A stretch of 52,923 nt of DNA from Deltaproteobacteria bacterium (lineage in GTDB: Bacteria > Desulfobacterota > Binatia > UTPRO1): contig JADLHM010000155.1 of NCBI GenBank assembly GCA_020848745.1, forward strand, positions 1 through 52,923, read 5' to 3'. Within the stretch, counting starts at the first letter, position 1, and each line of letters starts with the position of its first letter. The translations under genes were made by a program, and so were the position numbers. This document shows, one piece after another, positions 16,469 through 39,452 of this stretch. Under the pieces are notes generated by a model. It saw nothing but the letters and a program-made list of their open reading frames with translations, made no database searches and was not told where the DNA came from.

Positions 16469-17947
16469 TCAGTGAAACGCGATGCGGCGCACGTACAGAT
16501 CAAGCGGCGGCCGCTTGTTCTGCGCGTCGCCGAGCGTCTTGATGACGGCGCGCGCGTCGCCCCACTCTTCCCACATCACGTAGGCGGTGGCGCCGCCGAC
16601 GGCGATCTGCGGAAAGCGCACGGTGCCCTGGCCCTCGGCCTCCGGGCGGTCGACCACGGCGAGCGGCGCCTCCCACGTGGCACCGTCGTCCTTCGACCGC
16701 GTCAACCGGACGCCGCGCGCGCCGGCGGCGTAGACGAGATAGAGCGTCCCGTCGGATCCCGATGCCAGGCGCGGCGCGCTGGCCTTGACGTCGGCGGGCG
16801 TCAACGGCGCGACCGCGTCCTTGCCGGGGCTCCAGGCGCCGTCCGGCCGCAAGCTCACGTAGTACACCGCCTCGGCGCCGCCACGCGCCTTCGCCTCGAA
16901 GACCACTGCGGCGCGCTTCCCGTCCGAGAAGAGCTGCACCGTCGGAGCCGTCCCTCCCGGCTGCTCGTGCAGCAGCACGTCCGTGCCCCAGGTGATCCCG
17001 CCGTCCGCCGAGGAGTCGGCCCAGACCTCGGCGAAGGCGTTGATCCCGCCGACGGCGGCCGTCCAGAGGACGACCGCGCGCCCGCTGGCGAAGGCGGCGC
17101 GCGGCGCCAGCGGCGCACCGCGCCCCTTGCCGTCGTCGACCCGAACGGGCTTCGACCACGTGGCTCCGCGGTCCGAAGAGGCGGCCGCCATCACCACGCG
17201 CCCCGCCCCCGACGCCTGCTCCTCCCAGACCGCGACGACCCGGTGCTCCCCGTCGCTCGCCACGGAAACGGCGTTCGCCATGAGGCCCCCGCCCTCCCCG
17301 TCGTCGATCCGCACGTCCTGCGGCAGCCAGGTCGCGCCGCGATCGAGGGAGTGGTTCACGAAGACGCCGGTCGTGTAGCCGCGCTCGTCGGGCCAGGCGA
17401 CCGTCACGCCGCCGCTCCGGTCGGTCGCGATGGCCGGAGCGAATGCCATCGGCTCCGTGTTGAGCACGCGCGGATCCGACCAGCTCGCGCCGCCGTCGCG
17501 GGTGCTGCGGAACACGACGAACTTGTTCCCGGTCTCCGGCCGCCGCGCCTGCCAGGCCGCGAAGAACTCGCCGTCAGCCGCGCCCCGCAGCATGGTGAGA
17601 CCGATCGTGATCGTCCTCAGCATGTCGTCGGGGCTCAGGTGGGCTTCCGGACCGAACGGCTCATCCGCCTTCGGGGCCCGCCGGAAGACGACCGGCCGAT
17701 AGGGCGGCTCGTCCCGCATCCAGATCGCCACCGCGCCGCCGTTCGCGAGCGCGTGGATCGCGGCGTAGTACGCGACCTGGTAGCGCCCGACGTTCCCGGC
17801 CTCGCCGTTCAGCCGCTCGATCTCGGCGAGCTCGGGCCCCTTCGGCTGACATCCGAGCACCAGGACGAAGAAGGACACGAGCAGAGACGTCCGGAGACCG
17901 CGGCGGCAGCATCGCAAGGGGGCACCCATCCTGGTGGTGGTCGTCAT
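16469..17947 (-). CDS. BNR/Asp-box repeat lipoprotein (sialidase-like propeller)
   Basis: This 492-residue lipoprotein has a signal peptide ending in the lipobox LVLGC (C33). The mature part is a beta-propeller of sialidase type with five Asp-boxes: STRDGGASW (148), SLDRGATW (200), SSDRGATW (257), SSADGGITW (312) and SKDDGATW (418). I see no clear sialidase Arg triad, so it is more likely a carbohydrate-binding or glycan-handling lipoprotein than a true neuraminidase. It starts only 12 bp after a strong intrinsic terminator and has no visible ribosome site; ATG at M7 is an alternative. Its expression may depend on terminator read-through. Confidence 0.82.
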   Translation of the reverse strand: MTTTTRMGAPLRCCRRGLRTSLLVSFFVLVLGCQPKGPELAEIERLNGEAGNVGRYQVAYYAAIHALANGGAVAIWMRDEPPYRPVVFRRAPKADEPFGPEAHLSPDDMLRTITIGLTMLRGAADGEFFAAWQARRPETGNKFVVFRSTRDGGASWSDPRVLNTEPMAFAPAIATDRSGGVTVAWPDERGYTTGVFVNHSLDRGATWLPQDVRIDDGEGGGLMANAVSVASDGEHRVVAVWEEQASGAGRVVMAAASSDRGATWSKPVRVDDGKGRGAPLAPRAAFASGRAVVLWTAAVGGINAFAEVWADSSADGGITWGTDVLLHEQPGGTAPTVQLFSDGKRAAVVFEAKARGGAEAVYYVSLRPDGAWSPGKDAVAPLTPADVKASAPRLASGSDGTLYLVYAAGARGVRLTRSKDDGATWEAPLAVVDRPEAEGQGTVRFPQIAVGGATAYVMWEEWGDARAVIKTLGDAQNKRPPLDLYVRRIAFH

Positions 17948-17959
17948 GGCCGAGCGGGC

Positions 17960-17997
17960 AAAAAGAGAGGGGACGGCGTACGAAACGCCGTCCCCTC
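17960..17997 (-). terminator. Intrinsic terminator of the secreted-protein gene
   Basis: A perfect 13-bp stem (gaggggacggcgt at 17967-17979 and its complement at 17985-17997) with a 5-nt loop is followed on the minus strand by TCTTTTT. It lies 33 bp beyond the stop of the gene at 18031-19098. This is the only unmistakable Rho-independent terminator in the window. Confidence 0.92.
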
Positions 17998-18030: not shown

Positions 18031-19098
18031 TTACTCCGCGGTGTAGCGACCGAGCACCGAGGTGCCGTACGGACCCACCGCCTGGCCGTGATACGCGAAC
18101 AGGAAGGTGGTCAGGTCGATGCCGTTGATCGTGGTGTCGCCGATCGGCACATTGCCTTCGTCGCTACCGACCTGGCAGTTCGTGATGCGAACGAAACCCG
18201 AAGTCTCGGCCGGGATCGAGGCCGGGATGATGGCCGGGAGATCGATGGCCGCGAGGGAATCGTTCTCGGCGATCTTCGCCGTGCTCGAGCACGTGACGCA
18301 GATGTCCGGCAGCGACACGAAGGACTCGACGTTGTCGTAGTACTGCGCGTTGCAGCAGACGGCCGAGCCGTTCGTGAGTGCGGACGGGATCGGGCCGATC
18401 TCGGACTCCGAGAACTGCGCATTGCCCGCAGGGAACGCCACCCCGATGAAGAAGACCTCGGAATCCTGGAGGTCGAGCGGGTTGAAGGTCTGCAGGAAGA
18501 GGCCGGCCGCGACCGGACCAGTGAGGAAGAAGTCCCCACCAGCGGGAAGCGTCTGGCCGTCGACGACGCCGATCGCGTTGTTGCCGAACGCCGCGTTGGT
18601 CGCGGTGTTGGCGACGACCCAGCTGCCGATGAGGGCCGGAGTGCCGCTCGGCGCTTCCGGATCCTCGGGCTCGCAGGTCTGGCTGTTGGTGTCGGCATCG
18701 AACGACGTAACCGTGACGAAGCCCTTCTCACCCGTCAGGTTGATCACGGGGCCAGTGTTGATGTTGCTCTGGCCGGTCTGGATCTGACCCTGGAGGGCGG
18801 TCGGGTCCACGACCACGGTGTCACGCGGCGTCAGGCAGATGAAGACGTCCGCGAGGTGGTCGCAGCTCTCGGACCAGAACGACCAGTGGGTCGCCAGGGG
18901 ATCCGAGTCCTCGCCACCGATGCGGCTCACGAGCTGGAAGCTCGCCTTCCCGTCCGTGACGTCGAACGGCATGATCAGCGCCACCGCCGGCTGGATCGTG
19001 GTGACCGTGTCACCGAGCTCGGCCGCCTGCACGGGACACGTGGCAAACGCCACGCCCGCGAGGGCCGCCCCAAAACTAAACTTGATGCCCTTCCTCAT
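18031..19098 (-). CDS. Secreted Cys-containing protein of unknown function, monocistronic
   Basis: This 355-residue protein has a clear Sec signal peptide (MRKGIKFSFGAALAGVAFA..., cleavage near VQA-A, residue 25-26). The mature chain is acidic, rich in Gly, Asn, Thr and beta-strand-type residues, with paired cysteines (ESCDHLADVFIC, AVCCNAQ, DICVTCSS, TNCQV) suggesting disulfides outside the cell. I do not recognise the family; no PEP-CTERM or LPXTG signal is present. It has its own promoter, a long leader, a GGAGAGAGAG ribosome site and a strong terminator, so it looks like an abundantly made envelope or extracellular protein and a natural T2SS-substrate candidate. Third-position GC is visibly lower than in its neighbours. 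Confidence 0.85.
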   Translation of the reverse strand: MRKGIKFSFGAALAGVAFATCPVQAAELGDTVTTIQPAVALIMPFDVTDGKASFQLVSRIGGEDSDPLATHWSFWSESCDHLADVFICLTPRDTVVVDPTALQGQIQTGQSNINTGPVINLTGEKGFVTVTSFDADTNSQTCEPEDPEAPSGTPALIGSWVVANTATNAAFGNNAIGVVDGQTLPAGGDFFLTGPVAAGLFLQTFNPLDLQDSEVFFIGVAFPAGNAQFSESEIGPIPSALTNGSAVCCNAQYYDNVESFVSLPDICVTCSSTAKIAENDSLAAIDLPAIIPASIPAETSGFVRITNCQVGSDEGNVPIGDTTINGIDLTTFLFAYHGQAVGPYGTSVLGRYTAE

Positions 19099-19158
19099 AG
19101 TGCTCTCTCTCCTTTCGTCTCCACTCGTTCGCTGTGAGACTTCACTGACCTACTGCAC

Positions 19159-19185
19159 ATCGCGCCGGTCCGGTGATGGCGCGAT
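19159..19185 (-). promoter_or_regulatory. Leader hairpin in the secreted-protein mRNA
   Basis: atcgcgcc (19159-19166) and ggcgcgat (19178-19185) form a perfect 8-bp stem with an 11-nt loop in the 5' leader, about 60 nt before the start codon. It leaves the ribosome site free. It may stabilise the transcript or be part of a regulatory leader; no known riboswitch is recognised. Confidence 0.35.
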
Positions 19186-19331
19186 CTCTTGGCAATCGTG
19201 AGCACCCATCCCCCTTCCGGTCCTTCCGACCAACGACCGCTGGGGAGCGCGTCACTCGCTGAAACTTTGATTACGAGACCCAAAAAGAAGACCCACGACC
19301 CCCAACCATCCTCACCCTAAAAACGCGGCGC

Positions 19332-19361
19332 ATCCTAACCCGAGGTTTTGAAATGTGTCAA
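19332..19361 (-). promoter_or_regulatory. Sigma70-like promoter of the secreted-protein gene
   Basis: On the minus strand a perfect -35 TTGACA (19356-19361) is followed after 18 bp by TAGGAT (19332-19337; 4 of 6 consensus bases). Surrounding sequence is unusually AT-rich for this genome. Predicted initiation near 19325 gives a leader of about 225 nt. The spacer through 19338-19355 includes an A-run. Confidence 0.7.
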
Positions 19362-19373
19362 GGCTCGAGAGCC

Positions 19374-19829
19374 TCATTCGGCCATCACCACGTACCAGAC
19401 GCCGTCGCGCCGCACCCATTGGTCGTTGGTGGTGACCTGCTTCTTGATGAATGTCAGCTCGCCCTCGGGCGTCTTCAGGGGGAAATTGACCTCGTTGCGG
19501 ACGGCGACGGTCGCCTTGTCGTCTCCGTCCTGCTTAACGTCGCTGATTTCGTAACTTAGGATGTCGAAGGCGAGGAAGCGGCGCTTCAGGAAGGCGTCGC
19601 GCGACAGCGACTTCCTGGCCTCCGGGTCGACGTACTTGTCGTACACCTCGGGCCACCCCTTGGACTGCTTGAGGCCCCAGTAGGCGGATGCACGCTCCTT
19701 CAGGGAGGCCGCCGGGTCGGTTTTCCGACACCCGCCCCCGGCCCCGAGCGCAGTCACGAGCGCCAATCCGAGGACTCCCGCCAGCGCCGCCGCCCGGCTC
19801 GTCGTCTCGCCCCACCCCTCAAGTCGCAT
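19374..19829 (-). CDS. Small exported protein, probable lipoprotein
   Basis: This 151-residue protein begins MRLEGWGETTSR, has a hydrophobic segment (AAALAGVLGLALVTALG) and then GGGCRKTDP; C34 could be lipidated, although the lipobox is imperfect. The mature part is one compact alpha+beta domain ending DGVWYVVMAE. It resembles small periplasmic NTF2-like or 'YVDPEARK...RRFLAFDIL' proteins near secretion or polysaccharide loci. Function unknown. The longer frame upstream is excluded because it lies inside the acyltransferase gene. The chosen ATG overlaps that gene's end by 11 bp. It is the last gene of the long right-hand transcription unit. Confidence 0.75.
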   Translation of the reverse strand: MRLEGWGETTSRAAALAGVLGLALVTALGAGGGCRKTDPAASLKERASAYWGLKQSKGWPEVYDKYVDPEARKSLSRDAFLKRRFLAFDILSYEISDVKQDGDDKATVAVRNEVNFPLKTPEGELTFIKKQVTTNDQWVRRDGVWYVVMAE

Positions 19830-20814
19830 GCGCACCTGCCTCGTATCCACTGCGACCCCCTGCGTCAATCGTGGCTGGGAGCGGCTCCTCGACCCAGAAG
19901 CTGCGGGCGTACTCCCACATGAAGAATTGCGCCGGATCGACGGCGATCTCGCGCTCGACCACGTCGATGCACCGCTGCAGCGTTCCCGCTCCGGCTTCCG
20001 GCCCCGGGACCCTCGGCAGCACCGTGAGCGTGTGCGTGCGGCCCGGCGCGTCGCGCCGCACCGTGAAGGGCACGAGCGCCGCCCCGGTTTCACCGGCGAG
20101 GTATTCGATCCCGAGGGGGAACTCGGCGACGTGGCCGAGGAAGCGGACCCGACCGCGATGGCGGACCAGCTCGGGCGGCACGTCGATCAGCATGTACACC
20201 ACCTGCCCCGCTCCGAGCGCGGCCCGGATGCGCGCCATCGCGTCCGGCGTTCCGGGGAGGATGAAGGAGCTCCCGACGATGCGCTCCAGGGCGGCGACCT
20301 TGCGCGCACCGTAGCGGCGCACGGCGTCGTGGAGCGGATTGTCGTCGGGCTCGAGCGAACGCGCGATGACGTTCATGCGATAGCCGAGCCGAGCGAGCGC
20401 GATGATCGCGAGGCACATGCTGCCGTAGTGCGACGAGAACACGATCGCGCCGCACCCACCCGCGAGCGCGGCATCGAGGTGCTCGCGGCCCTGCACGGCG
20501 ACGACGCGATCGACGCCCTCCGCGCCGAGCTCCGGATAGAAGAACGCCTCGGATTCCTCGCACGCCTGGGTCTGGAAGCAGCGGCGGATCGCGCGCCGCG
20601 CCGCGGCGGCCGTGAGCGCGTCGCCATACGCCCGCCGGATGTTGGCGATCGCGGCCTCGCGGCCGACGGTACGCCACCAGTAGCGGACGTCGCCGCGGCG
20701 CCGCCCCCACCAGAGCGCGGCGCGCCACGAAACGCGCGCCAACGCCGGCATGATCGTGAAGTAGTCGAGCTCCATCGCGGCGCGGATCCAGCGCGCCGAC
20801 GCGCCGCCGCTCAC
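19819..20814 (-). CDS. LpxL/HtrB-like acyltransferase with an altered catalytic motif
   Basis: This 331-residue protein is of the lipid A late-acyltransferase (lysophospholipid acyltransferase) fold. It has an N-terminal amphipathic segment, the AIANIRRAYGD element, GCGAIVFSSHYGSM, and later 'YMLIDVPPEL' and 'FFMWEYARSFW'. In LpxL enzymes the catalytic motif is H-x4-(D/E); here it is H129-YGSM-C134, so the acidic partner is replaced by Cys. It may acylate a different acceptor, use another residue, or be inactive. It begins at a GTG overlapping the Wzt stop (GTGA, 20811-20814), tying lipid modification to the O-antigen exporter. Confidence 0.8.
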   Translation of the reverse strand: MSGGASARWIRAAMELDYFTIMPALARVSWRAALWWGRRRGDVRYWWRTVGREAAIANIRRAYGDALTAAAARRAIRRCFQTQACEESEAFFYPELGAEGVDRVVAVQGREHLDAALAGGCGAIVFSSHYGSMCLAIIALARLGYRMNVIARSLEPDDNPLHDAVRRYGARKVAALERIVGSSFILPGTPDAMARIRAALGAGQVVYMLIDVPPELVRHRGRVRFLGHVAEFPLGIEYLAGETGAALVPFTVRRDAPGRTHTLTVLPRVPGPEAGAGTLQRCIDVVEREIAVDPAQFFMWEYARSFWVEEPLPATIDAGGRSGYEAGAHAT

Positions 20815-22007
20815 GACGGCGCGACCCATTGGTGGTCCATCCGCATGACGCCGAACTCGTCCGAGCGATTGCGGACGCGAAACGGACAGCGACGCTCCTG
20901 GACGTCGTAGATCAGCAGCGCCGAGCGGTTGTCGATGGTCGCGACGTTCAAGTAGTACCCCCCGCCGAGGAGCGGCAGCCGGGGCACGTGGAGAACCGCT
21001 TCGAAGCGCCCGTCGGGACGGGCGTGCATGCCGACCGCGTCCATCTCGGTCGATACGCAATAGCAGACGAGGCCGTCGTTGCGCACGAAGGCGATGCCGA
21101 CCCCCGGCTCGAGCGCCGCGTCGCGCCCGCGTTCGAGCACGACCCGGACCGTGAAGGGCGCGCCGCTCTGCCAGGTCGGCGGCTCCTGCCCGTCGCCGCC
21201 TTCGAGCGCGACCTCGACCAGGCGCAGGACCGCCGGATCGCGCCCGGCCGCCGGCTGGGACGCGACCTGCTCCTCGTCGCGCACGCGCGTGTACTCGAGA
21301 TACCCGTCGATCACCTCGTCGACCGGCCCGAGCGCCTCCACGCGACCCTGGCGGAGCCAGAGCGCGCGGTCGCAGAGCTTCTTCACCTGGTACATCGCGT
21401 GCGAGCAGAAGAGGATCGTCTTGCCCCGCTCGCGGAACTCGGTGATGCGGTCGACGCACTTCGTCTGGAAGTGCTGGTCGCCGACGGCGAGCGCCTCGTC
21501 GATGATCAGCATGTCGGGATCGACGCTCACCGCGAGCGCGAAGGCGAGCCGCACGTACATGCCCGAGGAGTACGTGCGTACCGGCTGCTCGATGAAGCCG
21601 CCGAGCTCCGAGAAGGCGATCGCCTCCCCGATGCGGCGCTCGGCCTCGTCGCCGGTGATGCCGAAGAGCGCCGCGTGCATGCGGGCGTTGTGGCGGCCGC
21701 TGAACTCGGGATGGAATCCGGCGCCGAGCTCCAGGATCGCGGCGAGCGTCCCGTGCACGGCGACCCGCCCCGTCGTCGGCCGCGTCGTGCCGGTGAGCAA
21801 GGCCAGCAACGTCGACTTGCCGGCGCCGTTCTCGCCGATGATCCCGATCGACTCGCCGGCCCGTACGTCGAGGTCGAGATCGCGGAGCGCCCAGAACTCC
21901 TGGTGCCGCGGTCGCCGCGAGAGCCATTCGAACGCCCGATCGAGCGGGCGCGCGTAGAGCCGATACGCCTTGCCGAGTCGCTCCGCCCGCACCGCGATCA
22001 TCGTCAC
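20811..22007 (-). CDS. wzt: ABC transporter ATPase for O-antigen/polysaccharide export (Wzt-like)
   Basis: This is a 398-residue protein. Residues 1-240 are the ATPase: Walker A GENGAGKST (58-66), signature YSSGM (146-150), Walker B MLIIDE (166-171) and H-loop His203. The set, with 'ILELGAGFHPEFSGR', is typical of the polysaccharide subgroup. Residues ~250-398 form a beta-sandwich C-terminal extension like the Wzt domain that recognises the modified end of the finished O-chain. With the neighbouring permease it should flip undecaprenyl-PP-linked polysaccharide into the periplasm. Both ends are GTGA overlaps with wzm and the acyltransferase. Confidence 0.92.
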   Translation of the reverse strand: MTMIAVRAERLGKAYRLYARPLDRAFEWLSRRPRHQEFWALRDLDLDVRAGESIGIIGENGAGKSTLLALLTGTTRPTTGRVAVHGTLAAILELGAGFHPEFSGRHNARMHAALFGITGDEAERRIGEAIAFSELGGFIEQPVRTYSSGMYVRLAFALAVSVDPDMLIIDEALAVGDQHFQTKCVDRITEFRERGKTILFCSHAMYQVKKLCDRALWLRQGRVEALGPVDEVIDGYLEYTRVRDEEQVASQPAAGRDPAVLRLVEVALEGGDGQEPPTWQSGAPFTVRVVLERGRDAALEPGVGIAFVRNDGLVCYCVSTEMDAVGMHARPDGRFEAVLHVPRLPLLGGGYYLNVATIDNRSALLIYDVQERRCPFRVRNRSDEFGVMRMDHQWVAPS

Positions 22008-22867
22008 ACCAGATCCGCGAACTCGCCGCGCGCGCGGGCGAAGATCCAGGCCCCGATCGCGAACGTCGCGAGACTCGCGGTCGCGATCTGAAGAACCTCC
22101 GCGCCGTTCGGCGCGATGCCGTAGAGCACCACGTCACGATGCGCCCGCACGAGCGCCGTCATCGGGTTCAACGCCAGGACCGGCCGCAGGAACGGCGGCA
22201 CGAGGTGCTGCGGGTAGAGGATGGGGGTCAGGTAGAACCACACCGGCAGCAACACCCCGAGGGCCTGCGCGGTGTCGCGGAAGAAGACGTGCAGCGTCGC
22301 CGCCGCCCAGCCGAGGCCGACGGCCACGGCGAGCTCGGCGGCGAGCAGCAACGGCCAGACGGCGAGCGTCGGACGCGGCGGGAACCCGAGCGCCGCCATC
22401 AGGAGGAGCAGGAGCGCCGTCGCGATCACCTGGTGCACGACCGCGGCGCACGCGAGCTGCACGGGGAGCACCTCGACCGGAAAGATCACCCGCTTCACCA
22501 GCGTCGGATTGTCGACCAGGCACGTGGCGCTGCGCGTGATCGCCTCCTGGATCGCGAGCCACGGGAAGAGTCCGCAGGCGAGATAGAGGACGAACGGCAC
22601 GTCGCCGCCGCCGGCGTCCGTCACGCGCACCTGCATCACGGTCGCGAAGACGAAGGTGTACGTCGCGAGCTGCAAGAGCGGCTGCGCGATCGACCAGAAC
22701 GTGCCGAGCGCCGAGCCGACGTAGCGGCCGCGCAGGTCGCGCACCACGAGCGCGCGGACGACCGTGCGCGCCGACCAGACGGCCCGCGCCATGGCGAGGG
22801 GCGCCGCCCGGCCGGAACCGCGTTCACCCGCGACGACGGTACGGACCGGCGCCCCGTGCGCGCTCAC
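22004..22867 (-). CDS. wzm: ABC-2 type polysaccharide export permease (Wzm-like)
   Basis: This 287-residue permease has the ABC-2 polysaccharide motif RDLRGRYVGSALGTFW near residues 43-58. Six membrane segments follow, including 'LACGLFPWLAIQEAI', the NPTLVKRVIFPVEVLP loop, and 'FFRDTAQALGVLLPVWFYLTPILYP'. It forms the channel partner of the ATPase encoded next. The GTG start overlaps the TMTC-like gene's stop by GTGA. A Wzm/Wzt pair implies ABC-dependent (not Wzy-dependent) export of at least one glycan. Confidence 0.92.
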   Translation of the reverse strand: MSAHGAPVRTVVAGERGSGRAAPLAMARAVWSARTVVRALVVRDLRGRYVGSALGTFWSIAQPLLQLATYTFVFATVMQVRVTDAGGGDVPFVLYLACGLFPWLAIQEAITRSATCLVDNPTLVKRVIFPVEVLPVQLACAAVVHQVIATALLLLLMAALGFPPRPTLAVWPLLLAAELAVAVGLGWAAATLHVFFRDTAQALGVLLPVWFYLTPILYPQHLVPPFLRPVLALNPMTALVRAHRDVVLYGIAPNGAEVLQIATASLATFAIGAWIFARARGEFADLV

Positions 22868-24484: not shown

Positions 24485-26938
24485 TCACGGCGCCGGAGGG
24501 CTCACGCGCATTTCGTCGAGGGTTTCGTCGGACGGCTGGCCGCTGCCGTAGTCCGGACGGCTCCGCTCGTAGCGGTACAGGTCGCGCTCCATGCCCTTCA
24601 AGCGCGACTTGAAGGCCTCGGTCGCGTTCCGCGACTCCTGCCGGTCGCGCACGACGTGGGGCGTCAGCAGGACGATCAGCTCGGTCCGCCGGACGGTGTC
24701 GCTCTCGATGCGGAAGGCGCGGCCGACGACCGGGATGTCCATCAAGAACGGCACGCCCGTGCGGGCGCGGTCGACGGTGTCGTCGATGATGCCGCCGATG
24801 ACGATCGTCTCGCCGCTCTGGACCACCACGGTCGTCTCGGACTCGCGGGTGGAGAAGGTCGGCGACTGGATCCCGCCCGTCGTGGCGCTCGCGACCTGGC
24901 TCACCTCCTGGCGGATCTGCATGTTGACGAGCCCCTCGGAGTTCACCTGCGGGAGCACGGTCAGGATGACGCCGGTGTCGCGGTACTGGATGTTCTGCAG
25001 GATGTTCGACGTGCCGTTCGTCTGGGTCGTCGTGGCGTTGCTCTGGGTCGTGACGATCGGCACCTCGTTGCCGACCAGGATGTGCGCCTCGTGGTTGTCC
25101 GCCGTCATGATGTGGGGCGCGGAGAGCACCTTCAGCTTGTTCTTGCCGGCGGCGGCGTTCATCACGAGCGCGAAGTTCCGGTTGTCGCTGATGATGCCGA
25201 ACATGCCCGTGCCGGGAAGCGGCACGACGTCGGCGGCACGGCTGCCGAGCGCGTTGAGGTCGAAGAGGCTCGCGTTGTTGTTGGCGTTGTCGGAGTCCGC
25301 GTTGGTATTCGTGGGGCTCCCGGTGATGCGGTCGATTGCGCGGGCGCCTCCCGCCGAACGCGCCCGGCTCTGGTCCGCCATTGCCCACTCGACGCCGAAC
25401 TTCATGTCGTCGCCGAGCGTCACCTCCGCGACCAGCACCTCGATCAGCACCTGGCGGGGGACGACGTCGAGGCGGCGCAGCACCTCGCGGATGTCGGCGT
25501 AGTCCTTCTTGGTGGCCAGCACGACGAGCGAGTTGGTCACGTCGTCGGCGACGATACGCACCTCCTGGCGGAAGATGTCGCCGGGCTCGCCGCCGGCGAG
25601 CACGAAACCCTGGGCGCCCTGCGAGTTGCCGAACCCGCTGCTCGAGTTGTTCGTGTTCCCGAACCCGCCGCGGCTCGAGCTGCCGCCGATACCGCCGCTC
25701 CGGCCGCGCCGGCTCGAGCTCGACGAGCTCGAACCGATCCCGCTGCTGTCGTCGAACTGCTGCAACGGCGCGTAGTCGTCGAAGCCGTCGAGCATCTGGT
25801 TCACCCGCGGGGCGGCCGGCGCGCCAACCACCGGCGCGGGATTGTTCTGCCGCCCGACCACGGGCCCGCCATGGCGGCCGGCGGCCTGCGCGCCGCCGAT
25901 GCCGCCGCGCTGCCGGGTGCCGAACGGCGTGAAGCCCTGCTGCTGGCTCTGGCGCGAGGACGATCCTTCCCCGTAGAGCTCGCTCAGGATCTCGGCGAGG
26001 TCGGCGGCCTTGGCGTTCTCGACCGCGTACACGTGCACCGAGCGCCCGGCCCCCTCCTCGGGCGGAACGTCGAGCAACTTCATCCAGCGGTCGACCTCGG
26101 CGAAGATCGTCGGATTGAACGCGACGATCACGAGCGAGTTCAGGCGCTGCAGCGGGATGATGTAGACGCCCCGTTCCTCCGCCGAGGCCGGCGTGACGCC
26201 GTAGGTATCCAGGATCGCGATCAGCTCCTGGCCGATCTCCTCGATGTTGGCGTGCTCGATCTTGTAGACCTTGGCCCGCAGGTCGCGGAACGCGTCGCGA
26301 TCGAAGGTGGCGACCAGGTCCTTCAAGCGGATGACGTTCGACTCGAGATCGGTCACGATCAGGAGGTTCGCGCGCGCGTAGGGGATGACGTCGCCGCCCG
26401 GCGTCACGAAGGGCTGGAGAACGTTCACCATCTCCTGCGCCGCCACGTGCTCGACCTTCACCACCTCGATGATGAACGCATCCTCGCGGGAGGCTTGTCG
26501 CTTCTCGCCGGGGGCGACCGGGATGATCGCCTTCGTCTTCGCTTCGGCCACGGGGATGATCTGGTAGATGTCGCCCACCTGCACCGCGGAGATGCCGTTC
26601 GAGCGCAGGATGCGGTTGAAGATCGGGAAGAGATCCTCCTTGGCGATCGGCCCGGTCGTGCGGATCGTCACCTGACCCTGGATGCGGGGATCGATCTGGT
26701 AGTTGATGCCGAGGGAGTCGGCGAGGCTGTGGATCACCTCGCGGATGTCGGCCCCTTCGAAGTTCAACACGACGGAGTCGTCGGGAGCGGGGCTCGTCTT
26801 GGCCGCCTCGGGCGCCGCGCTCGGCCCGCCGTTCGGGGCGGGGGCGCCCGGGGTCGGCGCGGGAGTCTCGGCGCGCGCGAGCGCGGTGGTCCCGACCACC
26901 ACGATCGCGGCGACGATCCTCAGGACTGTTCGTGTCAT
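24485..26938 (-). CDS. gspD: T2SS secretin GspD
   Basis: This is the 817-residue outer-membrane secretin. A signal peptide (to ~22) and a Pro/Ala linker precede the N0 domain (VVLNFEGADIREVIHSLAD, ~56-130). N1-N3 follow (~150-480) and then the secretin barrel (~490-765), with the signature VPFLMDIPVVGRAF (729-742) and TELIVLLTPHVV (752-763). The N2/N3 junction carries a long low-complexity insert (~325-450) with Gln/Gly, Pro and Ser/Gly/Asn tracts, including seven consecutive serines. An Asn-rich loop lies at ~541-558. It forms the exit pore for folded exoproteins. It is 18 bp after gspC. Confidence 0.95.
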   Translation of the reverse strand: MTRTVLRIVAAIVVVGTTALARAETPAPTPGAPAPNGGPSAAPEAAKTSPAPDDSVVLNFEGADIREVIHSLADSLGINYQIDPRIQGQVTIRTTGPIAKEDLFPIFNRILRSNGISAVQVGDIYQIIPVAEAKTKAIIPVAPGEKRQASREDAFIIEVVKVEHVAAQEMVNVLQPFVTPGGDVIPYARANLLIVTDLESNVIRLKDLVATFDRDAFRDLRAKVYKIEHANIEEIGQELIAILDTYGVTPASAEERGVYIIPLQRLNSLVIVAFNPTIFAEVDRWMKLLDVPPEEGAGRSVHVYAVENAKAADLAEILSELYGEGSSSRQSQQQGFTPFGTRQRGGIGGAQAAGRHGGPVVGRQNNPAPVVGAPAAPRVNQMLDGFDDYAPLQQFDDSSGIGSSSSSSSRRGRSGGIGGSSSRGGFGNTNNSSSGFGNSQGAQGFVLAGGEPGDIFRQEVRIVADDVTNSLVVLATKKDYADIREVLRRLDVVPRQVLIEVLVAEVTLGDDMKFGVEWAMADQSRARSAGGARAIDRITGSPTNTNADSDNANNNASLFDLNALGSRAADVVPLPGTGMFGIISDNRNFALVMNAAAGKNKLKVLSAPHIMTADNHEAHILVGNEVPIVTTQSNATTTQTNGTSNILQNIQYRDTGVILTVLPQVNSEGLVNMQIRQEVSQVASATTGGIQSPTFSTRESETTVVVQSGETIVIGGIIDDTVDRARTGVPFLMDIPVVGRAFRIESDTVRRTELIVLLTPHVVRDRQESRNATEAFKSRLKGMERDLYRYERSRPDYGSGQPSDETLDEMRVSPPAP

Positions 26939-26956: not shown

Positions 26957-27640
26957 CTACTGTGCTTCGGCGGCCTGGCCGCGGCGCTTGCGCGCCTCCT
27001 GCCGGAGCCGCTCGATCTTCTCCTTGATGTCGGCTGCCGGGGTGCGCGCCGCGCCGGGCGACATGACGCTCCGGGGAGTGCGCGTGGCACCGGCGGCCGG
27101 GGTCGGCGTGGGCTGGATGCCGGCCGGCCCGGTCGCGGCCGCCGGTTGGCCGGCCCTGGCCTTCTCGACGTTGATCACCAGCGTCGTTTCTTGTCCGTCC
27201 GGTCCTACCATCACGATCGCGGTGGGGTCGATCCGTCCCACCTTGTAGCCCCCCACGTCCTCGCCTTGCCGGAGCCACTGGGGCTTCGGTTGCGTCGTAT
27301 CTTTGACCAGAGCTTCGCGCTCCGGGCCACCCCCCGAGACCCCCAGGAGGACCAGTGTAAGCGGGCGGACGGGCTCGTTCGTGGTCACGGCGGCCGCCTG
27401 CCCGGGCTGCACCCCGGTCCGCGACTGGTCGAAGAGGTCCTTGTCGGCGATCTGGGTCGCGAGATTCGGCGGCGCCGGGCGACGGTCGACCTTTGGAAGG
27501 TCGAGCTTCTGGGCCTTGGCCTCGCGCGGCGCGATCGCCTCGGCCTCGGGCGTACGGACCCACCAGAGCGTGACGATCTGGAACAGCAGTCCGGCCACGA
27601 CGACGAGGAGGAGGATGTTGAGGATCAACACGCGCCGCAT
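26957..27640 (-). CDS. gspC: T2SS inner-membrane protein GspC
   Basis: This 227-residue protein has one N-terminal membrane helix (LILNILLLVVVAGLLFQIVTLWW) and a periplasmic homology region (LTLVLLGVSGGGPEREALVKD...QWLRQGEDVGGYKVGRIDPTAIVM), which in GspC contacts the secretin N0 domain. A Pro/Thr-rich linker and a basic helical tail (IKEKIERLRQEARKRRG) follow; no PDZ domain is evident. Its ATG overlaps the gspM stop by one base (TGATG). Confidence 0.85.
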   Translation of the reverse strand: MRRVLILNILLLVVVAGLLFQIVTLWWVRTPEAEAIAPREAKAQKLDLPKVDRRPAPPNLATQIADKDLFDQSRTGVQPGQAAAVTTNEPVRPLTLVLLGVSGGGPEREALVKDTTQPKPQWLRQGEDVGGYKVGRIDPTAIVMVGPDGQETTLVINVEKARAGQPAAATGPAGIQPTPTPAAGATRTPRSVMSPGAARTPAADIKEKIERLRQEARKRRGQAAEAQ

Positions 27641-28338
27641 CAGGCGGTGCCTCCCGCCGGAGACGCCACCGGCGCCGCGCTCGGCGCCCCGGCCGGCGCG
27701 GACCCGGCCGGCCCGCCCGCTGCCGCGGCGGGCGCCTTGCCGCCCGCGGCGGCGGGCGCCCCTTGGAGGAACGCCGTCACCTCGATCGTCGCCGAGAGCG
27801 CCCGCGCCGCCTTGCCGCGGAGCACGGCGCCGCGACGGCTGATCTCGAGAAACGGGATCAGGACCCGGGTCTGTCCGTGCTCCACTCCGGCCAGGAAGTC
27901 CGCGACCTGCTTCAGATCGCCGGTGACGGTGATGCGGACGGCGATGCGGCGGAACTCGCCGACGGCGTCGTCGCGCATGACCTGCGTGCTCTGGATCTCG
28001 ACGCCCTTCTCGCCCGCGAGACTGTGCAGCGTGTTCTGGAGATTGGCGGCCGCCAGGGTCGGCGTGTCGCCGGGGACGAGCTGCGCGTGCACCTGTTGAT
28101 AGAGCTTCTGGAGCCCGTCGCGCTGCCGCGTGATGTCGGCCGTCCGCGCGAGATACGCCTTGCCGTTCTCGATCTTCTCGCGATGCGCGGCGATGTCGTC
28201 CTGCAGATCCTGGCGGTAGGAGAGGAACGGCGAGACCACCAGCAGGTGCACGAGGAAGAGCCCGAGCACGCCGCCGGCGGCCCCGATCAGCCGCCGCTCG
28301 CGGACGCTGAATTGCGCCCAGCGCTCGCGCCAGTTCAT
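27640..28338 (-). CDS. gspM: T2SS assembly protein GspM (PilO-like)
   Basis: This 232-residue bitopic protein has a short cytoplasmic start (MNWRERWAQFSVRERRLI, a typical GspM opening), one helix (AAGGVLGLFLVHLLVVSPF), a coiled coil (~42-90), a ferredoxin-like periplasmic domain (~90-190), and an Ala/Gly/Pro-rich tail of about 40 residues. With GspL it forms the inner-membrane platform that anchors the ATPase GspE. Start by ATGA overlap with gspL. Confidence 0.86.
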   Translation of the reverse strand: MNWRERWAQFSVRERRLIGAAGGVLGLFLVHLLVVSPFLSYRQDLQDDIAAHREKIENGKAYLARTADITRQRDGLQKLYQQVHAQLVPGDTPTLAAANLQNTLHSLAGEKGVEIQSTQVMRDDAVGEFRRIAVRITVTGDLKQVADFLAGVEHGQTRVLIPFLEISRRGAVLRGKAARALSATIEVTAFLQGAPAAAGGKAPAAAAGGPAGSAPAGAPSAAPVASPAGGTA

Positions 28339-29756
28339 CCTTCGATCTCCGCGACGATCGAGAAGCGCTCCTGCCCGCCCTGCCCCTGCGTGATCGGCGA
28401 CGTGAACTGCGCGTTCTTGAACATCGGCGAGCTCTCGAGGATCTGGATGAGCTCGGAGGACTTGGTCGCGAAGCCGTCCATCTCGATGCGGTTGTTCCGG
28501 TAGCGGAGCGTCGTGAGATACGCGTCGGACGGGATCTTGTCGGTCAGCTCCTTCAGGTAGTGCACGACGCGGCGGTCCTGGTTCTCGCTGAGCGTCGCGA
28601 TCTGGGACTGGAACTTCCGGACGTCGGACTCCTGCTTCTTGATCGCGGCGACCTGGGGCTCGAGCTCCTCGACCTCGCGGGCGAGCGTCCGACGGGTCAT
28701 CTCGTCGCGCACGACGACGCTGCCGCCGTAGACGAGGGCCAGGACGACCGCGAGGACCATGAGGAGCAACGGAACGAGCAGGCCCTCCTGCACCGGGCGG
28801 TGCTCCGCGGGCAGCAGGTCGATGTCGACCACGCCCTCGCGCACGGCGCCGAGCGCCGCGCCGACGGCGGGAAGGAGGGACGGATCGGCGGCGTCGAAGA
28901 AGCTGGTCGGCGCCTCGAGCCGGCCGCTCGCGAGCGCGAAGAGATCGAGGGTGCCCTCGGAGCCCGTCCCGTTCCCGCTGCCGTTCGGCGCCGCCGCGAC
29001 CAGGAGATCGACCGGGGCCTCGACGGCGTGGAACACCTCGGCGAGGTCGCGGCGCACCATCGCGTTCACCTCGGCGCTCGACGGCGCGTGGCCGCGCAGC
29101 GCGTGGCTCGCGACCAGCTGGCGCTCGACGAAGACCGCGAGCTCGCCCTCGCCGCCGCCCCCGTCGCGTACGAGGAGCGCCACGGGCTGCGCGAGGGCGC
29201 CGCGGCAGAACGCGGTATAGTCGCCGAGCGCCGCCGCGGCGACGGCGACCGACTTCGGCCGGATGCCGGCGCCCTCCAGGGCGTCCACGTACTGGCGCAC
29301 CACGCGGCGCGGCACCGACACCACCAGGACCGCGAGCCTCCCGTTCTCGCCCTGCCCGGACTCCCTGACCTGGTAGTCGTAGAAGATCTCGTCGCGCGGC
29401 AGCGGAATCACGCGCTCGATCTCGTACTCGAGCACCTGGGCCAGGTTCTCCCGGGCCGCGATCGGGAGGACCAGGCGGTTCAGCAGGAGTTCCTGGCGGG
29501 CGAGGCAGAGGTGCACCGCCCCCGGTTCGGCCCTGGTCTCGCGCTTGAAGGCGGCAACCGCCTCCGCGAGGCTCCGCAGCCGCTCCTCCGGCCGCGACAC
29601 CGGAGCCAGCGGGTACGTCCGGTTCTGGACGAGGGCGACCCGCAGCAGGCGCTTTCGCACCAGCGCCAGCGACACGTGCTCGGGGCCGACGTAGATCCCG
29701 AGCCCGTCGAGGAAGTCGACGCGGCGTATCCGCTGCGAGAAGGTCGAAAGGTCCAT
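28335..29756 (-). CDS. gspL: T2SS platform protein GspL (PilM/PilN-like)
   Basis: This is a 473-residue protein. Residues ~1-320 are an actin-like cytoplasmic domain (VGPEHVSLALVRKRLLRV, LLLNRLVLPIAARENLAQVLEYEIERVIPLPRDEIFYDYQV), which in GspL/PilM docks GspE. One helix (LLVPLLLMVLAVVLALVYGG) precedes a coiled coil and a ferredoxin-like PilN domain (IPSDAYLTTLRYRNNRIEMDGFA). The arrangement is PilM fused to PilN, as usual for GspL. It is 3 bp after gspK and overlaps gspM by ATGA. Confidence 0.88.
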   Translation of the reverse strand: MDLSTFSQRIRRVDFLDGLGIYVGPEHVSLALVRKRLLRVALVQNRTYPLAPVSRPEERLRSLAEAVAAFKRETRAEPGAVHLCLARQELLLNRLVLPIAARENLAQVLEYEIERVIPLPRDEIFYDYQVRESGQGENGRLAVLVVSVPRRVVRQYVDALEGAGIRPKSVAVAAAALGDYTAFCRGALAQPVALLVRDGGGGEGELAVFVERQLVASHALRGHAPSSAEVNAMVRRDLAEVFHAVEAPVDLLVAAAPNGSGNGTGSEGTLDLFALASGRLEAPTSFFDAADPSLLPAVGAALGAVREGVVDIDLLPAEHRPVQEGLLVPLLLMVLAVVLALVYGGSVVVRDEMTRRTLAREVEELEPQVAAIKKQESDVRKFQSQIATLSENQDRRVVHYLKELTDKIPSDAYLTTLRYRNNRIEMDGFATKSSELIQILESSPMFKNAQFTSPITQGQGGQERFSIVAEIEG

Positions 29757-29759
29757 GGA

Positions 29760-30752
29760 TCAGAATGCCGGCAGGCGGTCGTACCACCGGTCGATGTGGA
29801 AGCCGTCGCCGTCCTCGGGGATCTCCACCACCGCCCCGACGCGGGCCTGCACCCGTCCGTTCTGCATCGTGGCGCGGGCTTCGATCGCGACCCGGCTCGG
29901 CGCCCGATCCACCAGCCGGCGCGCCAGCACCTGATCCGCAACCTTGGCGCGAATCAAGCCCAGTACGCTGCTCGGATCCTCGTCCCGCGCGGTGACGATC
30001 TCGTCCACGGCCTCCTCATCCCCTCCCAGCACCACCCGCAGCACCGCCACCGGTGCCGTCCGGACGTTGATGTTAGCGCTCCGGTTGAAGACGGAAAAGA
30101 CTTCCCGTAGCGGAATCGGCGGCGTCTCGTCCGATCCGAGCCCCCGACCCCGCACCCCGAAGAACAGCTCGCGCGTAATACCACGAACTTGGAGGAGCTC
30201 GTCCACCGAATCGAAGGGGCCGTTCTTGGCGTGGTAGGGCTCGGCGAGCTTCATGTAGTACTCGTCCTCGGCGCCGTGCAGGCGGTGGAGGTCGTCGCCG
30301 TCGCGCCAGTCGATGATGGCGTCGACGATCTCCTCCTGCTCGTCCGCCTTCATCCCGAGCACCTCGAAGACCTTCCGGAGCAGGGTCTCGTCCGCCCGGT
30401 TCAAGGAGATCTTCCCGCCCTCGTCGATCAGCCGGACCCCGTAGGTCCCCCCCCAGTACGGCTCCTCGTGCCAGCGGCCGTCGGGCAGCCACGGGGGGGG
30501 CGCGTCGGCGTCGGCCGCGTCCGGATCGTCGTCCTCCGCTTGCGTCTGGCGCGCGTACAGCAGGCGGTAGATGGCACGATTGATGCCGCCGATGGCCACC
30601 CCCCGGGCCTGCACCTCCTCGGCCAGGTTCTGGGTCGCGATCGCGTCGTCGCGCATGGCGCGCGAGAACTCGGCGGAGAGCACGCTCAGGACCATGAAGA
30701 TCCAGATCACCATGAGGAGCGCGATGCCGCGCTCGCCGCGGGCGTTCCTCAC
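29760..30752 (-). CDS. gspK: T2SS minor pseudopilin GspK
   Basis: This 330-residue protein begins at a GTG in a GTGA overlap with gspJ (30749-30752; VRNARGERGIALLMVIWIF). The prepilin segment has Gly before IALLMV but lacks the usual +5 Glu, as is normal for GspK, the pilus-tip subunit. The helical insert contains ISLNRADETLLRKVFEVLG, IIDWRDGDD and 'EDEYYMKLAEPYHAKNGPFDSVDELLQVRGIT', the conserved GspK body. The longer frame upstream is an overlap with gspJ and is rejected. Confidence 0.92.
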   Translation of the reverse strand: MRNARGERGIALLMVIWIFMVLSVLSAEFSRAMRDDAIATQNLAEEVQARGVAIGGINRAIYRLLYARQTQAEDDDPDAADADAPPPWLPDGRWHEEPYWGGTYGVRLIDEGGKISLNRADETLLRKVFEVLGMKADEQEEIVDAIIDWRDGDDLHRLHGAEDEYYMKLAEPYHAKNGPFDSVDELLQVRGITRELFFGVRGRGLGSDETPPIPLREVFSVFNRSANINVRTAPVAVLRVVLGGDEEAVDEIVTARDEDPSSVLGLIRAKVADQVLARRLVDRAPSRVAIEARATMQNGRVQARVGAVVEIPEDGDGFHIDRWYDRLPAF

Positions 30753-31501
30753 TGGTCGAGCTCCTCGTCCTCGTCGACCTCGTCGTCCCCGCCCGATCCG
30801 CCGGTCGTCGTCGTCATGCCCTGCTCGTCGTCCTCGGTCTCGTCCTCCGGCGGCTCCTGGAAGTCGTTCGTGCCCCAGCCGGCCGCCCGGGTGAAGAGCG
30901 GGATCTCGCGGATCCACGGCGCGCCGCCGAAATACGGCAGGCCGTCGACCGTGACGCGCACGAGCCCCGGCAGGTCGTCCTCGTCGCGCGCGTCCCACTT
31001 GTCGACCCACCCGAGATCGCGCTCCTCGGCGGCCATGTACTCGAAGCGGAACGACGTGAAGCCCTCGAGCAGGACCGCGCGCTGGACCGATCCGTCGGAG
31101 GGCGCATCGTAGAGGTCCTTCGGGGTGAAGTTGACGCGCTCCTCGACCACCAGCTTCCCCTCGACGAGCCGATAGGTGACGGCGGCGAGCCCGGTTCCTC
31201 CGCGGCTCTGCGGCGCGCTCGTCACGAACATCAAGCCATCGGCGGCGCCGAGGAAGAACGGGACGTTCTCCTCGTCGTCGTAGTGCGCGAAATAGTAGAC
31301 CGCCGACCGCACCTGGCGGCCGAGCATCTCCTCGGCGAGCCGCATGCGCTGGTTCTCGTCCGCGGACCGCTCCCCGCTCGTCACCGCGCGGTGTCCGAAA
31401 TAGAAGGCGCTATAGACGATGGCCGAGATCATCCCGAAGATCACGAGCGCCAGCACCAGCTCGAGGAGCGTGAAGCCGGATTGCCGGCCGCGGATCGTCA
31501 T
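30749..31501 (-). CDS. gspJ: T2SS minor pseudopilin GspJ
   Basis: This 250-residue pseudopilin has the N-methylation signal GRQSG/FTLLELVLALVIFG with Glu at +5, followed by a beta-rich body (ERVNFTPKDLYD, LLEGFTSFRFEYM, LPGLVRVTVDGLPYFG). The C-terminal 40 residues are extremely acidic with a TTTTGGSGG patch, an unusual tail. Its ATG overlaps the gspI stop (ATGA, 31498-31501); the 24 residues the frame offers upstream lie inside gspI. Confidence 0.92.
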   Translation of the reverse strand: MTIRGRQSGFTLLELVLALVIFGMISAIVYSAFYFGHRAVTSGERSADENQRMRLAEEMLGRQVRSAVYYFAHYDDEENVPFFLGAADGLMFVTSAPQSRGGTGLAAVTYRLVEGKLVVEERVNFTPKDLYDAPSDGSVQRAVLLEGFTSFRFEYMAAEERDLGWVDKWDARDEDDLPGLVRVTVDGLPYFGGAPWIREIPLFTRAAGWGTNDFQEPPEDETEDDEQGMTTTTGGSGGDDEVDEDEELDQ

Positions 31502-31929
31502 GCCTGCGGGCTCGGCCCGACGCGCAACGTGCGCACGGTGTACACGCCCTCGCGGTCTTCCGCCTGCGCCCACAGCACGGACACCTCGATCTCGAAGATG
31601 GTGATGTCGCTCTTCACGTCGAGCTGGCGGCCGCTGCCCTCGAGCAGCTCGGTCGCCTCGCGGACGCGGCGCTCGTAGCGATAGCCCCCCGGCAGCTCGC
31701 CGCTGTCCTGTCCGGCCGCCGGATCGGGCTCGGTCATGGTCTGCTCGAGGAGGGCGCGGGCCTGCATGGCGGCGCGCGCCCGCACCCCGGCCGCGCGCTC
31801 GGTACGGAGCGCGGCGGTGAAGATCTGCAGTACCGCGACGACCCCGACACCGACGATCGCCATCGCGATCGCCACCTCGATCAACGTGAAGCCCGCCGAG
31901 CGGCGGACGCGTGACACGGACGTCCTCAC
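31498..31929 (-). CDS. gspI: T2SS minor pseudopilin GspI
   Basis: This 143-residue protein begins at a GTG overlapping the gspH stop (GTGA, 31926-31929). The prepilin motif is RRSAG/FTLIEVAIAMAIVGVGVV, with Glu at +5. The body shows the GspI pattern (RARAAMQARALLEQTM, YRYERRVREAT, FEIEVSVLWAQ). It forms the tip complex with GspJ and GspK. The window has no prepilin peptidase, so one must be encoded elsewhere. Confidence 0.9.
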   Translation of the reverse strand: MRTSVSRVRRSAGFTLIEVAIAMAIVGVGVVAVLQIFTAALRTERAAGVRARAAMQARALLEQTMTEPDPAAGQDSGELPGGYRYERRVREATELLEGSGRQLDVKSDITIFEIEVSVLWAQAEDREGVYTVRTLRVGPSPQA

Positions 31930-32402
31930 GTCGTCGCGTCCTGGATCACGACCGTCCCGAGCAGCGAGTCCACGCGGATCGCGAAGCTCAGGCTGTCGCC
32001 GTCCTGCTGTCCGACGACGAGCGCGATCCCGCTCGAGCCGCCGTTCGGATAGAACACCACCCGCGCGCCGCCGTCCTGATCGCGCCACCCGCCGCGGATG
32101 CCGGTCACCGCGGCTCCGCCGGGCAGCGTCGCCTGCTGGTCGCCCGTCCAGCGATACGTCTGCCCGTCGGCGTCGATCACGAGCTCCTGCTCGACACCGC
32201 GCCGCACGGCACGCTCGCGCAGACCGCGCATCACGGCCGCCAGCGAGCGCGTACCGCTCCGCACCTCACGGGCGCGCCAACCGCTCTGGATGCCCGGCGC
32301 CGCGAGCCCGCTCGCGATCGCGACGATCATCAGCACGACGATCAGCTCGAAGAGTGAGAATCCGCTCTCCGGCGTGCGCGCTCCGCGCGCCCGGCGCCGC
32401 AC
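31926..32402 (-). CDS. gspH: T2SS minor pseudopilin GspH
   Basis: This 158-residue pseudopilin starts at a GTG (32400-32402) 7 bp after gspG. The motif PESG/FSLFELIVVLMIVAIASGLAAPG has Glu at +5. The globular part carries REVRSGTRSLAAVMRGLRERAVRRG and an all-beta C-terminus (YRWTGDQQATLPGG, ARVVFYPNGGSSGIALVV), the GspH/FimT fold. Confidence 0.9.
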   Translation of the reverse strand: MRRRARGARTPESGFSLFELIVVLMIVAIASGLAAPGIQSGWRAREVRSGTRSLAAVMRGLRERAVRRGVEQELVIDADGQTYRWTGDQQATLPGGAAVTGIRGGWRDQDGGARVVFYPNGGSSGIALVVGQQDGDSLSFAIRVDSLLGTVVIQDATT

Positions 32403-32409
32403 GACCCGC

Positions 32410-32856
32410 TCAGCCGGCCCAGCTCGCGAGGTCTCGCGCGTCGCCGTCGCCGCCGGGCGCGCCGTCGGCGCCGTACGTGTAGAGATCGTACTCGCCGTGC
32501 TCGCCCGGGCTCACGTAGACGAACGGCCGACCCCACGGATCCGGGGGCACGCCCTTCTTCAAGTAGGGGCCGTCCCACCCGGGGATGCCCCGGCCCTCCT
32601 GCAGGGCGTTCAACCCCTCCTGGCTCGACGGATAGCGACCGACGTCGAGCCGGAACGTGTCGAGCGCGGTGCCGAGCAGCTCGATCTGGGTCCTGGCGGC
32701 CTGGGTGCGGGCCTTCCGCTCGCGACCGAGATACGCGGGCACCACGAGCGCCGCGAGCAGGCCGAGGATCACCATCACGACCAGCAGCTCGACGAGCGTG
32801 AAGCCGCCCTGGCGTCGTCGCGGCCGGTTGCGATCGTCCGTGCGCGTTTCGTTCAT
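32410..32856 (-). CDS. gspG: T2SS major pseudopilin GspG
   Basis: This 148-residue protein has the motif RRRQGG/FTLVELLVVMVILGLLAALVVP (Glu at +5). The conserved GspG features follow: TQIELLGTALDTFRLDVGRYPSSQEGL, 'PYLKKGVPPDPWGRPFVYVSPGEHGEYDLYTYGADG'. The last portion includes the calcium-site loop typical of the major pseudopilin. It builds the periplasmic pseudopilus that pushes substrates through GspD. The gene is 18 bp after gspF. Confidence 0.95.
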   Translation of the reverse strand: MNETRTDDRNRPRRRQGGFTLVELLVVMVILGLLAALVVPAYLGRERKARTQAARTQIELLGTALDTFRLDVGRYPSSQEGLNALQEGRGIPGWDGPYLKKGVPPDPWGRPFVYVSPGEHGEYDLYTYGADGAPGGDGDARDLASWAG

Positions 32857-32874
32857 GCGTTCACCCTCCAGGAA

Positions 32875-34104: not shown

Positions 34105-34132
34105 GCGACCTCGCGGAAAGCGATTCGGCTCC

Positions 34133-35299: not shown

Positions 35300-35307
35300 G
35301 CGCCCGC

Positions 35308-36678: not shown

Positions 36679-36696
36679 CGGCCGGCGCGCGCCGCC

Positions 36697-37667: not shown

Positions 37668-37671
<4 letters not shown>
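36697..37671 (-). CDS. Polyprenyl-phosphate hexose synthase-like GT2 (DPM1/GtrB/ArnC type)
   Basis: This 324-residue protein has a GT2 domain (VSVVVPVYNERPTIVALFDE, VDDGSNDGS, VTMDGDLQDDPAEVPRML with the metal-binding DGDLQDD, MNCGLKAFRREV, HRPRAFGRSRYGWSRALRG) followed by two C-terminal membrane helices (FFSLPGAALVMVGSVLCAYIAAL and LLIFAVLLVVVGVQLFTTGLVGEM). This is the architecture of enzymes that load mannose, glucose or aminoarabinose onto dolichol/undecaprenyl phosphate. Such carriers feed GT-C enzymes like those encoded at 22.9, 11.7 and 13.6 kb. It overlaps gspE by ATGA (37668-37671). Confidence 0.88.
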
Positions 37672-39386
<1,715 letters not shown>

Positions 39387-39452
39387 CGAAGGTTCCCTAA
39401 CATGCTGATCTAGCGCCCTCAAGGTGACTTCCGTCGTCGGGAGCGCGAGCGC

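Follow-up and report, generated by a model that had tools for sequence, protein, structure and literature searches.

In passages of two publications, vapA of Aeromonas hydrophila AH-1 and of Aeromonas salmonicida A450 is described as clustering with the sps genes of a type II secretion system (T2SS) and with Wzm/Wzt (PMC4413209, PMC4483657). For Vibrio cholerae, RbmA is characterized in a published passage as a secreted protein of two domains, whose ligand is the exopolysaccharide of the same strain (PMC5605196). The ASRAH-domain superfamily has been predicted to bind sugars and its domains were proposed to be sugar sensors, and actinobacterial surface dyads carrying ASRT domains were described (De Souza 2009, PMC2739507).

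Here, we analyzed a window of 52,923 nucleotides, the whole stretch of DNA presented above, which contains a minus-strand gene (18,031–19,098; hereafter the target gene) encoding a candidate secreted protein of 355 residues. Judging by analogy with the systems above, we consider it a real possibility, though somewhat short of an even one, that the target is a T2SS-exported surface protein bound to the polysaccharide of its own locus, with a role in a coat or matrix together with a BNR protein. The analysis describes a protein family that has no name in the libraries searched and proposes a model-based fold as well as a likely class of ligand. Among the titles retrieved on Binatota or Binatia and secretion, none concerned the target gene.

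The target gene and its product

The amino terminus of the protein (MRKGIKFSFGAALAGVAFATCPVQA) reads by eye as a clear Sec-type signal peptide, comprising approximately residues 1–25 (19,098–19,024, minus strand; by inspection only). The mature protein of 330 residues has a mass of 34 kDa, a predicted pI of 4.05, and contains 3 Lys and 57 Ser and Thr residues. It also contains eight Cys residues, which presumably form disulfides; four of these alignment columns are occupied by Cys in 37–40 of 45 relatives (alignment A2, 47 rows with L025 and L049 omitted). The sole Cys close to the cleavage site sits in ATCP and there is no clear lipobox, on which grounds we rejected the target as a lipoprotein. 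Likewise, a protein of repeated domains (a dyad) was discarded, as the profile alignment of the two halves scored 10.0 and 41 of 60 shuffles were equally good.

Searches with the target protein gave no match in Pfam at E 1 and nothing significant in NCBIfam (best E 0.06) or among PDB sequences (best E 0.29), both best values being meaningless. Across the 45 relatives, each of two Pfam families was hit weakly by a single member (best E 0.0016), one member had a weak hit in PHROGs (E 0.0063), and none matched NCBIfam at E 0.01. The family is unnamed in any library searched here, in agreement with the initial annotation, which had assigned the protein to no recognized family. A confident match to a known periplasmic enzyme, which that annotation had set against its own view, did not emerge from Pfam, NCBIfam, PHROGs or PDB sequences, and this candidate was dropped with isolated weak hits and no significant support. 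Viral or plasmid copies of the target, also considered, gave no match.

The promoter TTGACA-18-TAGGAT (19,361–19,332, minus strand) agrees with the consensus at 10 of 12 positions, has a spacer of 18 nt and was the sole promoter-like site detected in a four-part scan covering the entire window. The perfect −35 box previously ascribed to this gene alone is indeed the single TTGACA of the window; since 4.2 occurrences are expected by chance, its rarity alone is weak proof and its position carries the weight. The leader spans 226 nt (19,099–19,324, minus strand), a length that presumes a transcription start 7 nt past the −10 box, and ends at its 3′ side in the ribosome site gaaaggagagag, as strong and purine-rich as had been noted. 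From the earlier description of a leader of about 225 nt with a hairpin, the length was thus recovered under the assumed start and the hairpin is able to form locally, but the whole leader folded no better than shuffled sequences (z 0.05; z −1.1 for a 106-nt piece). The hairpin was not seen by eye in the alignment for L062 and L063. A riboswitch or otherwise structured leader was rejected on this fold score, and the two Rfam hits obtained were both under their gathering scores and located outside the leader. The intrinsic terminator (17,967–17,997, minus strand) combines a 13-bp stem with 10 GC pairs and a T tail at a fold z of −7.9, in line with its earlier description as a textbook one. The codon adaptation index of the target (CAI 0.726) lay within the range of 0.51–0.78 for 20 window genes, and ribosomal genes were not distinct either; we set aside high expression inferred from codon bias as uninformative in this GC-rich genome.

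The locus and its conservation across genomes

The genes surrounding the target, all on the minus strand, were identified by Pfam as T2SS and O-antigen-type genes, corroborating that the target lies beside a T2SS/O-antigen locus. Directly downstream is a BNR-type beta-propeller protein (16,469–17,947; BNR_2, E 9.9e-16), by inspection a probable lipoprotein, and upstream lies a small lipoprotein-like gene (19,374–19,850) with no Pfam match at E 0.001, the third member of a conserved module. An O-antigen-type ABC exporter (20,811–22,867) follows, consisting of Wzt (20,811–22,007; ABC_tran, Wzt_C) and Wzm (22,004–22,867; ABC2_membrane). The T2SS comprises GspD (24,485–26,938; Secretin, E 8.6e-49), a GspC-like gene (26,957–27,640; T2SSC, E 3.9e-5, slightly under the cut-off) and further genes at 28,335–39,422, which by Pfam are GspL/PilM-N-like, K, two N_methyl pseudopilin-like genes, G, F and GspE, with phosphodiesterase and glycosyltransferase genes sitting between F and E.

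The target family is multi-copy and has a clear member in 18 of the 148 genomes of the class (apparently Binatia). Matches were obtained in 19 of the 148 by sequence and in 19 by profile, with 18 holding a clear member by both; G351, whose match is a fragment interrupted by three stops, and G002 (E 2.9e-5, a distant unit type) were left out. Within a phylum-wide sample of 297 genomes the sole match was the window's own genome, which carries three family copies by sequence, and up to 12 profile matches per genome were found when distant units were included. G002, a genome of the same genus and 89% complete, lacks both a clear family member and a GspC match and shows only a weak, partial match to the BNR protein, be it through loss or through a missing contig.

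We compared 24 window genes, target included, with the fragments around the relatives. In 16 of the 18 family genomes, one copy is flanked by the ABC exporter and the small lipoprotein on one side and the beta-propeller protein on the other (the window and L045, L060, L062–L064, L068–L072, L076, L148–L151). The common order of Wzt, small lipoprotein, target, BNR beta-propeller protein and ArnT-like enzyme is retained in all 16 loci, and Wzm is present in 15, the exception, L063, being cut at the contig start. An LpxL-like gene comes after Wzt in the window and L060. The TMTC-like gene located ahead of Wzm in other loci could not be detected in L045 and L149, indicating that these two loci are somewhat different. 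GspD occurs within the same fragment in 11 of the 16 loci; of the other five, L063, L148, L149 and L151 start at a contig start at most 2 kb upstream of the ABC genes, and for L045 3.5 kb of contig lie outside the examined fragment. The earlier proposal to look for relatives beside T2SS genes thus returned the target beside Wzt in every syntenic locus and GspD nearby in most. Synteny is kept down to about 27% protein identity. The linkage to T2SS and O-antigen-type genes is not accidental but recurs in two taxonomic families within the class. The 29 fragments around other family copies contained no further window gene at E 1e-8.

A search with the BNR protein matched 23 of the 148 genomes at E 1e-8, 16 of them at E 1e-29 or better, and in each of these 16 the match adjoins a family member, with a wider gap in G397 and a second match elsewhere in G004. 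In G395, a similar T2SS–Wzm–Wzt locus (L146) has Wzt directly followed by the ArnT-like gene, so that the three-gene module is absent as a unit. The module was also missing from all ten T2SS regions examined in family-less genomes (L136–L145); in two of these regions Wzm and Wzt lie close by. A search for GspC matched 39 of the 143 class genomes covered, among them 16 of the 18 family genomes, with G397 and G399 unlisted and perhaps unsampled. The 23 class genomes with GspC and no clear family member, which we count against our preferred reading, indicate that the T2SS is wider than the family and is not devoted to the target protein class-wide.

The expression signals recur at the syntenic loci. 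The pattern TTGAC[AT]-N18-TA, defined post hoc after the alignments, occurs at a distance of 233–300 nt upstream of the start in 14 of the 16 loci, window counted, whereas no more than 0.8% of first-order random sequences matched in composition contain it; a stricter pattern requiring T at the −10 end misses the promoters of one taxonomic family, f6 (f1 and f6 being number labels of two such families). The TTGAC[AT]-N18-TA pattern is absent from L072 and L151, both of genus g14, which again counts against the preferred reading. Leaders of 196–263 nt accompany the promoter in the 14 loci. A long leader is also a feature of vapA. A terminator stem of at least 12 bp, beginning 25–52 nt past the stop, is present in 14 of the 16 loci by raw count, L068 having a weaker stem and L151 none; these two exceptions likewise speak against the preferred reading. 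Together, the recurrence of promoter and terminator indicates that the free-standing, strongly signalled gene is conserved and not a mere impression. Among 20 scanned copies away from the locus, one has a comparable −35/−10 pair and ten have terminator stems of at least 10 bp; the shared terminators, and the large number of copies outside the locus, weigh against the preferred reading. Between the window and an ortholog, 210 of 226 leader positions (93%) and 305 of 355 third codon positions (86%) are identical (raw counts). The 3′ block of the leader, GAACGAGTGGAGA..AAAGGAGAG, is invariant across five f1 leaders, and the end of the leader, with the ribosome site, hardly varies among these five or among the nine f6 leaders aligned. 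As far as sequence signals can tell, this conservation fits a major surface or extracellular protein.

In the tree, the ten f6 syntenic copies in the alignment cluster with a support of 92/96, below the level that the tool marks with a star and with one long branch included, and the f1 syntenic copies are intermingled with local duplicates, indicating that duplication from or into the locus went on in f1.

Pro/Thr-rich linkers and additional domains of the kind typical of surface proteins occur in some relatives. Family domains, such linkers and a further end are combined in L022 (1264–3282), L008 (7926–9731) and L023 (1384–3384, minus strand). The end is cytochrome-like, of CxxCH type, in L022 (Pfam matches below the cut-off) and in L008 (by eye only), and a weak CBM96 match lies beyond the linker in L023. 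L152–L156, from families f1 and f6, encode large secreted proteins with tandem distant family units of the form GDQ..FYDAR..TTFLNVAN (hereafter GDQ units), some with Pro/Thr-rich linkers. L049 (3553–5061, minus strand) shows an apparent circular permutation, the signal peptide being followed by profile positions 251–311 and then 4–257, which suggests that the amino and carboxy termini of the fold are close together.

Fold of the amino-terminal half

The model of the window protein, built from six sequences (pLDDT 46.9), aligned with TM1070 (1nc7) at Z 10.1 (rmsd 2.7, 105 aligned; next match Z 4.9), a value to be read with a model pLDDT of only 47. For the relative L007, the best of five models reached a pLDDT of 71.5 (the other four 47–49) and aligned with TM1070 at Z 8.9 (rmsd 2.3, 105 aligned) and with two ASRT entries at Z 7.9 and 7.7, the next unrelated row being at 5.4; with the structure-comparison tool used (VIA-align), a best Z of 7–8 is typical for models without a clear relative. 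The corresponding Foldseek E-values were weak (1.2e-3, and 3.1e-2 at rank 26). By sequence search, 1nc7 and 2ii7 belong to one family. The C-terminal half, modelled as part of the whole protein, gave no clear fold (best row Z 5.4).

None of the 45 family members matched PF07100 at E 1, nor did the window protein, and an hhalign comparison of the N-halves with 11 ASRT domains (an alignment omitting the hits of G431, G353, G416 and G034) scored 9.9, less than the average of 11.0 for shuffles. Twelve GDQ units, cut out individually, aligned with the target family at E 1.5e-24, and their N-half scored 25.1 against ASRT (E 0.0013, probability 18.6%), beating 100 of 100 column shuffles with a maximum of 16.1. 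The superfamily's conserved Asn at the end of strand 2 is represented by Asn in 29, Arg in 15 and His in one of the 45 members, and by the invariant N28 in the 12 GDQ units; the window protein has Arg at this position, which counts against the assignment. A Trp at the start of strand 1 (by inspection against the published description) and the ASRT-like signature SHExxCxxN in strand 2 (by inspection) were not present in alignments A1–A3.

Weighing the model matches and the weak, indirect GDQ bridge against the failed direct profile comparison, we say that the N-terminal half looks like an ASRT/TM1070 beta-sandwich, as judged from models, and do not file it as a superfamily member. The profile and structure search suggested in the initial annotation thus found no sequence family and an N-half model resembling TM1070, but no PF07100 match. 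Two PF07100 (ASRT) domains are present in a probable lipoprotein from the window's own genome (L084, 2623–3747, minus strand; G000 contig C38), which resembles the actinobacterial surface dyads (PMC2739507).

Proposed role and comparison with known systems

In the reading that we favor tentatively, strong expression from its own promoter would yield a disulfide-stabilized protein with two beta-rich halves, which would cross the inner membrane by its signal peptide and fold in the periplasm. The T2SS encoded upstream would export it, and binding to the polysaccharide delivered by Wzm/Wzt of the same locus would retain it at the cell surface; the N-half would be an ASRT/TM1070-like sandwich, a type predicted to bind sugars. 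There, it might work alongside the beta-propeller lipoprotein in a coat or matrix, in the manner of S-layer proteins or RbmA. The gene signals and their conservation, the neighborhood, the family and the fold resemblance of the N-half (at the level of models) are observed; a high abundance, the disulfides, export by the T2SS, binding to the polysaccharide and a role in the coat are properties that we infer. As most relatives checked retain the neighbors, the promoter and the terminator, the target probably belongs to an outer coat. Eight Cys residues are unusual among S-layer proteins, which counts against a coat. The initial annotation had envisaged a major surface or extracellular protein and T2SS cargo; the conserved signals and the conserved T2SS linkage favor this, and the 23 GspC genomes without a member detract from it.

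How far such a coat would resemble a true S-layer, a paracrystalline array over the whole cell surface attached to O-antigen like VapA, can be judged from several features of the locus. The gene content resembles the Aeromonas cluster of T2SS, surface-protein gene and Wzm/Wzt, as far as described in the passages cited (PMC4413209, PMC4483657), a single gene carries the conserved promoter, leader and terminator, and the mature protein is acidic (pI 4.05) with 3 Lys and 57 Ser and Thr among 330 residues. We nevertheless regard an array as improbable for a 34-kDa protein with 8 Cys whose many paralogs are in part fused to other domains.

Two further explanations place the protein elsewhere. It might remain inside the cell envelope, in the periplasm or associated with the outer membrane, and sense sugars or take part in glycan assembly, thereby helping to build or regulate the polysaccharide, which we consider unlikely but far from negligible: the linkage to Wzt and polysaccharide genes is tight (16 of 16, including five fragments without a visible T2SS secretin gene), lipoprotein-like genes lie on either flank and ASRAH domains were proposed as sugar sensors (PMC2739507), whereas the target's own promoter and terminator set it apart from the biosynthesis genes, and those relatives in which long Pro/Thr-rich linkers occur together with additional domains appear extracellular. 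Alternatively, the protein might act outside the cell in soluble form, as a lectin or in substrate capture; its position in the locus would then be historical and its signals inherited with the family. This agrees with the multi-copy nature of the family and with several off-locus f6 copies that keep strong ribosome sites and terminators. This explanation seems doubtful to us, as just one of the 20 scanned off-locus copies has a comparable −35/−10 pair and synteny persists to about 27% protein identity.

Returning to the surface coat, an extended and more speculative version, which we hold to be rather unlikely, is that this uncultured class (apparently Binatia) evolved, independently of known S-layers, a coat of its own that is exported by the T2SS, anchored to O-polysaccharide and made of an ASRT-like sandwich and a beta-propeller partner, in which a sugar-sensor fold has turned into a coat building block. 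If the favored surface-coat reading is right, it would provide a candidate surface-coat system, with promoter, cargo and exporter, for a class known mostly from environmental genomes.

Compared with ASRT/TM1070 (PF07100), the target family resembles TM1070 in the modelled fold of the N-half (Z 8.9–10.1), and 29 of 45 members as well as all 12 GDQ units have the strand-2 Asn; it differs in having no PF07100 match, no strand-1 Trp and no SHExxCxxN, and the window protein has Arg in place of the Asn. With respect to RbmA and Bap1 of Vibrio cholerae, the proposed likeness is to a secreted polysaccharide binder of two beta-sandwiches, as RbmA is portrayed in the part of the literature considered; the RbmA domains, however, are FnIII, and RbmA chain 4kkq appeared in Foldseek at E 0.022, rank 41, among many beta-sandwiches. 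Bap1, with its beta-propeller, would parallel the BNR partner.

The Aeromonas A-layer cluster (spsE-L, spsD, vapA, Wzm, Wzt), as described in PMC4413209 and PMC4483657, likewise unites T2SS genes with a single gene for a surface protein and with an O-antigen ABC exporter, in a gene order E-F-G...D comparable to that of the window. Here, in contrast, the protein gene lies downstream of Wzm/Wzt between two lipoprotein-like genes, and its product is a 34-kDa protein with 8 Cys and many paralogs, apparently different from VapA. Were the proposed role correct, the gene arrangement known from Aeromonas would recur here around an apparently unrelated protein.
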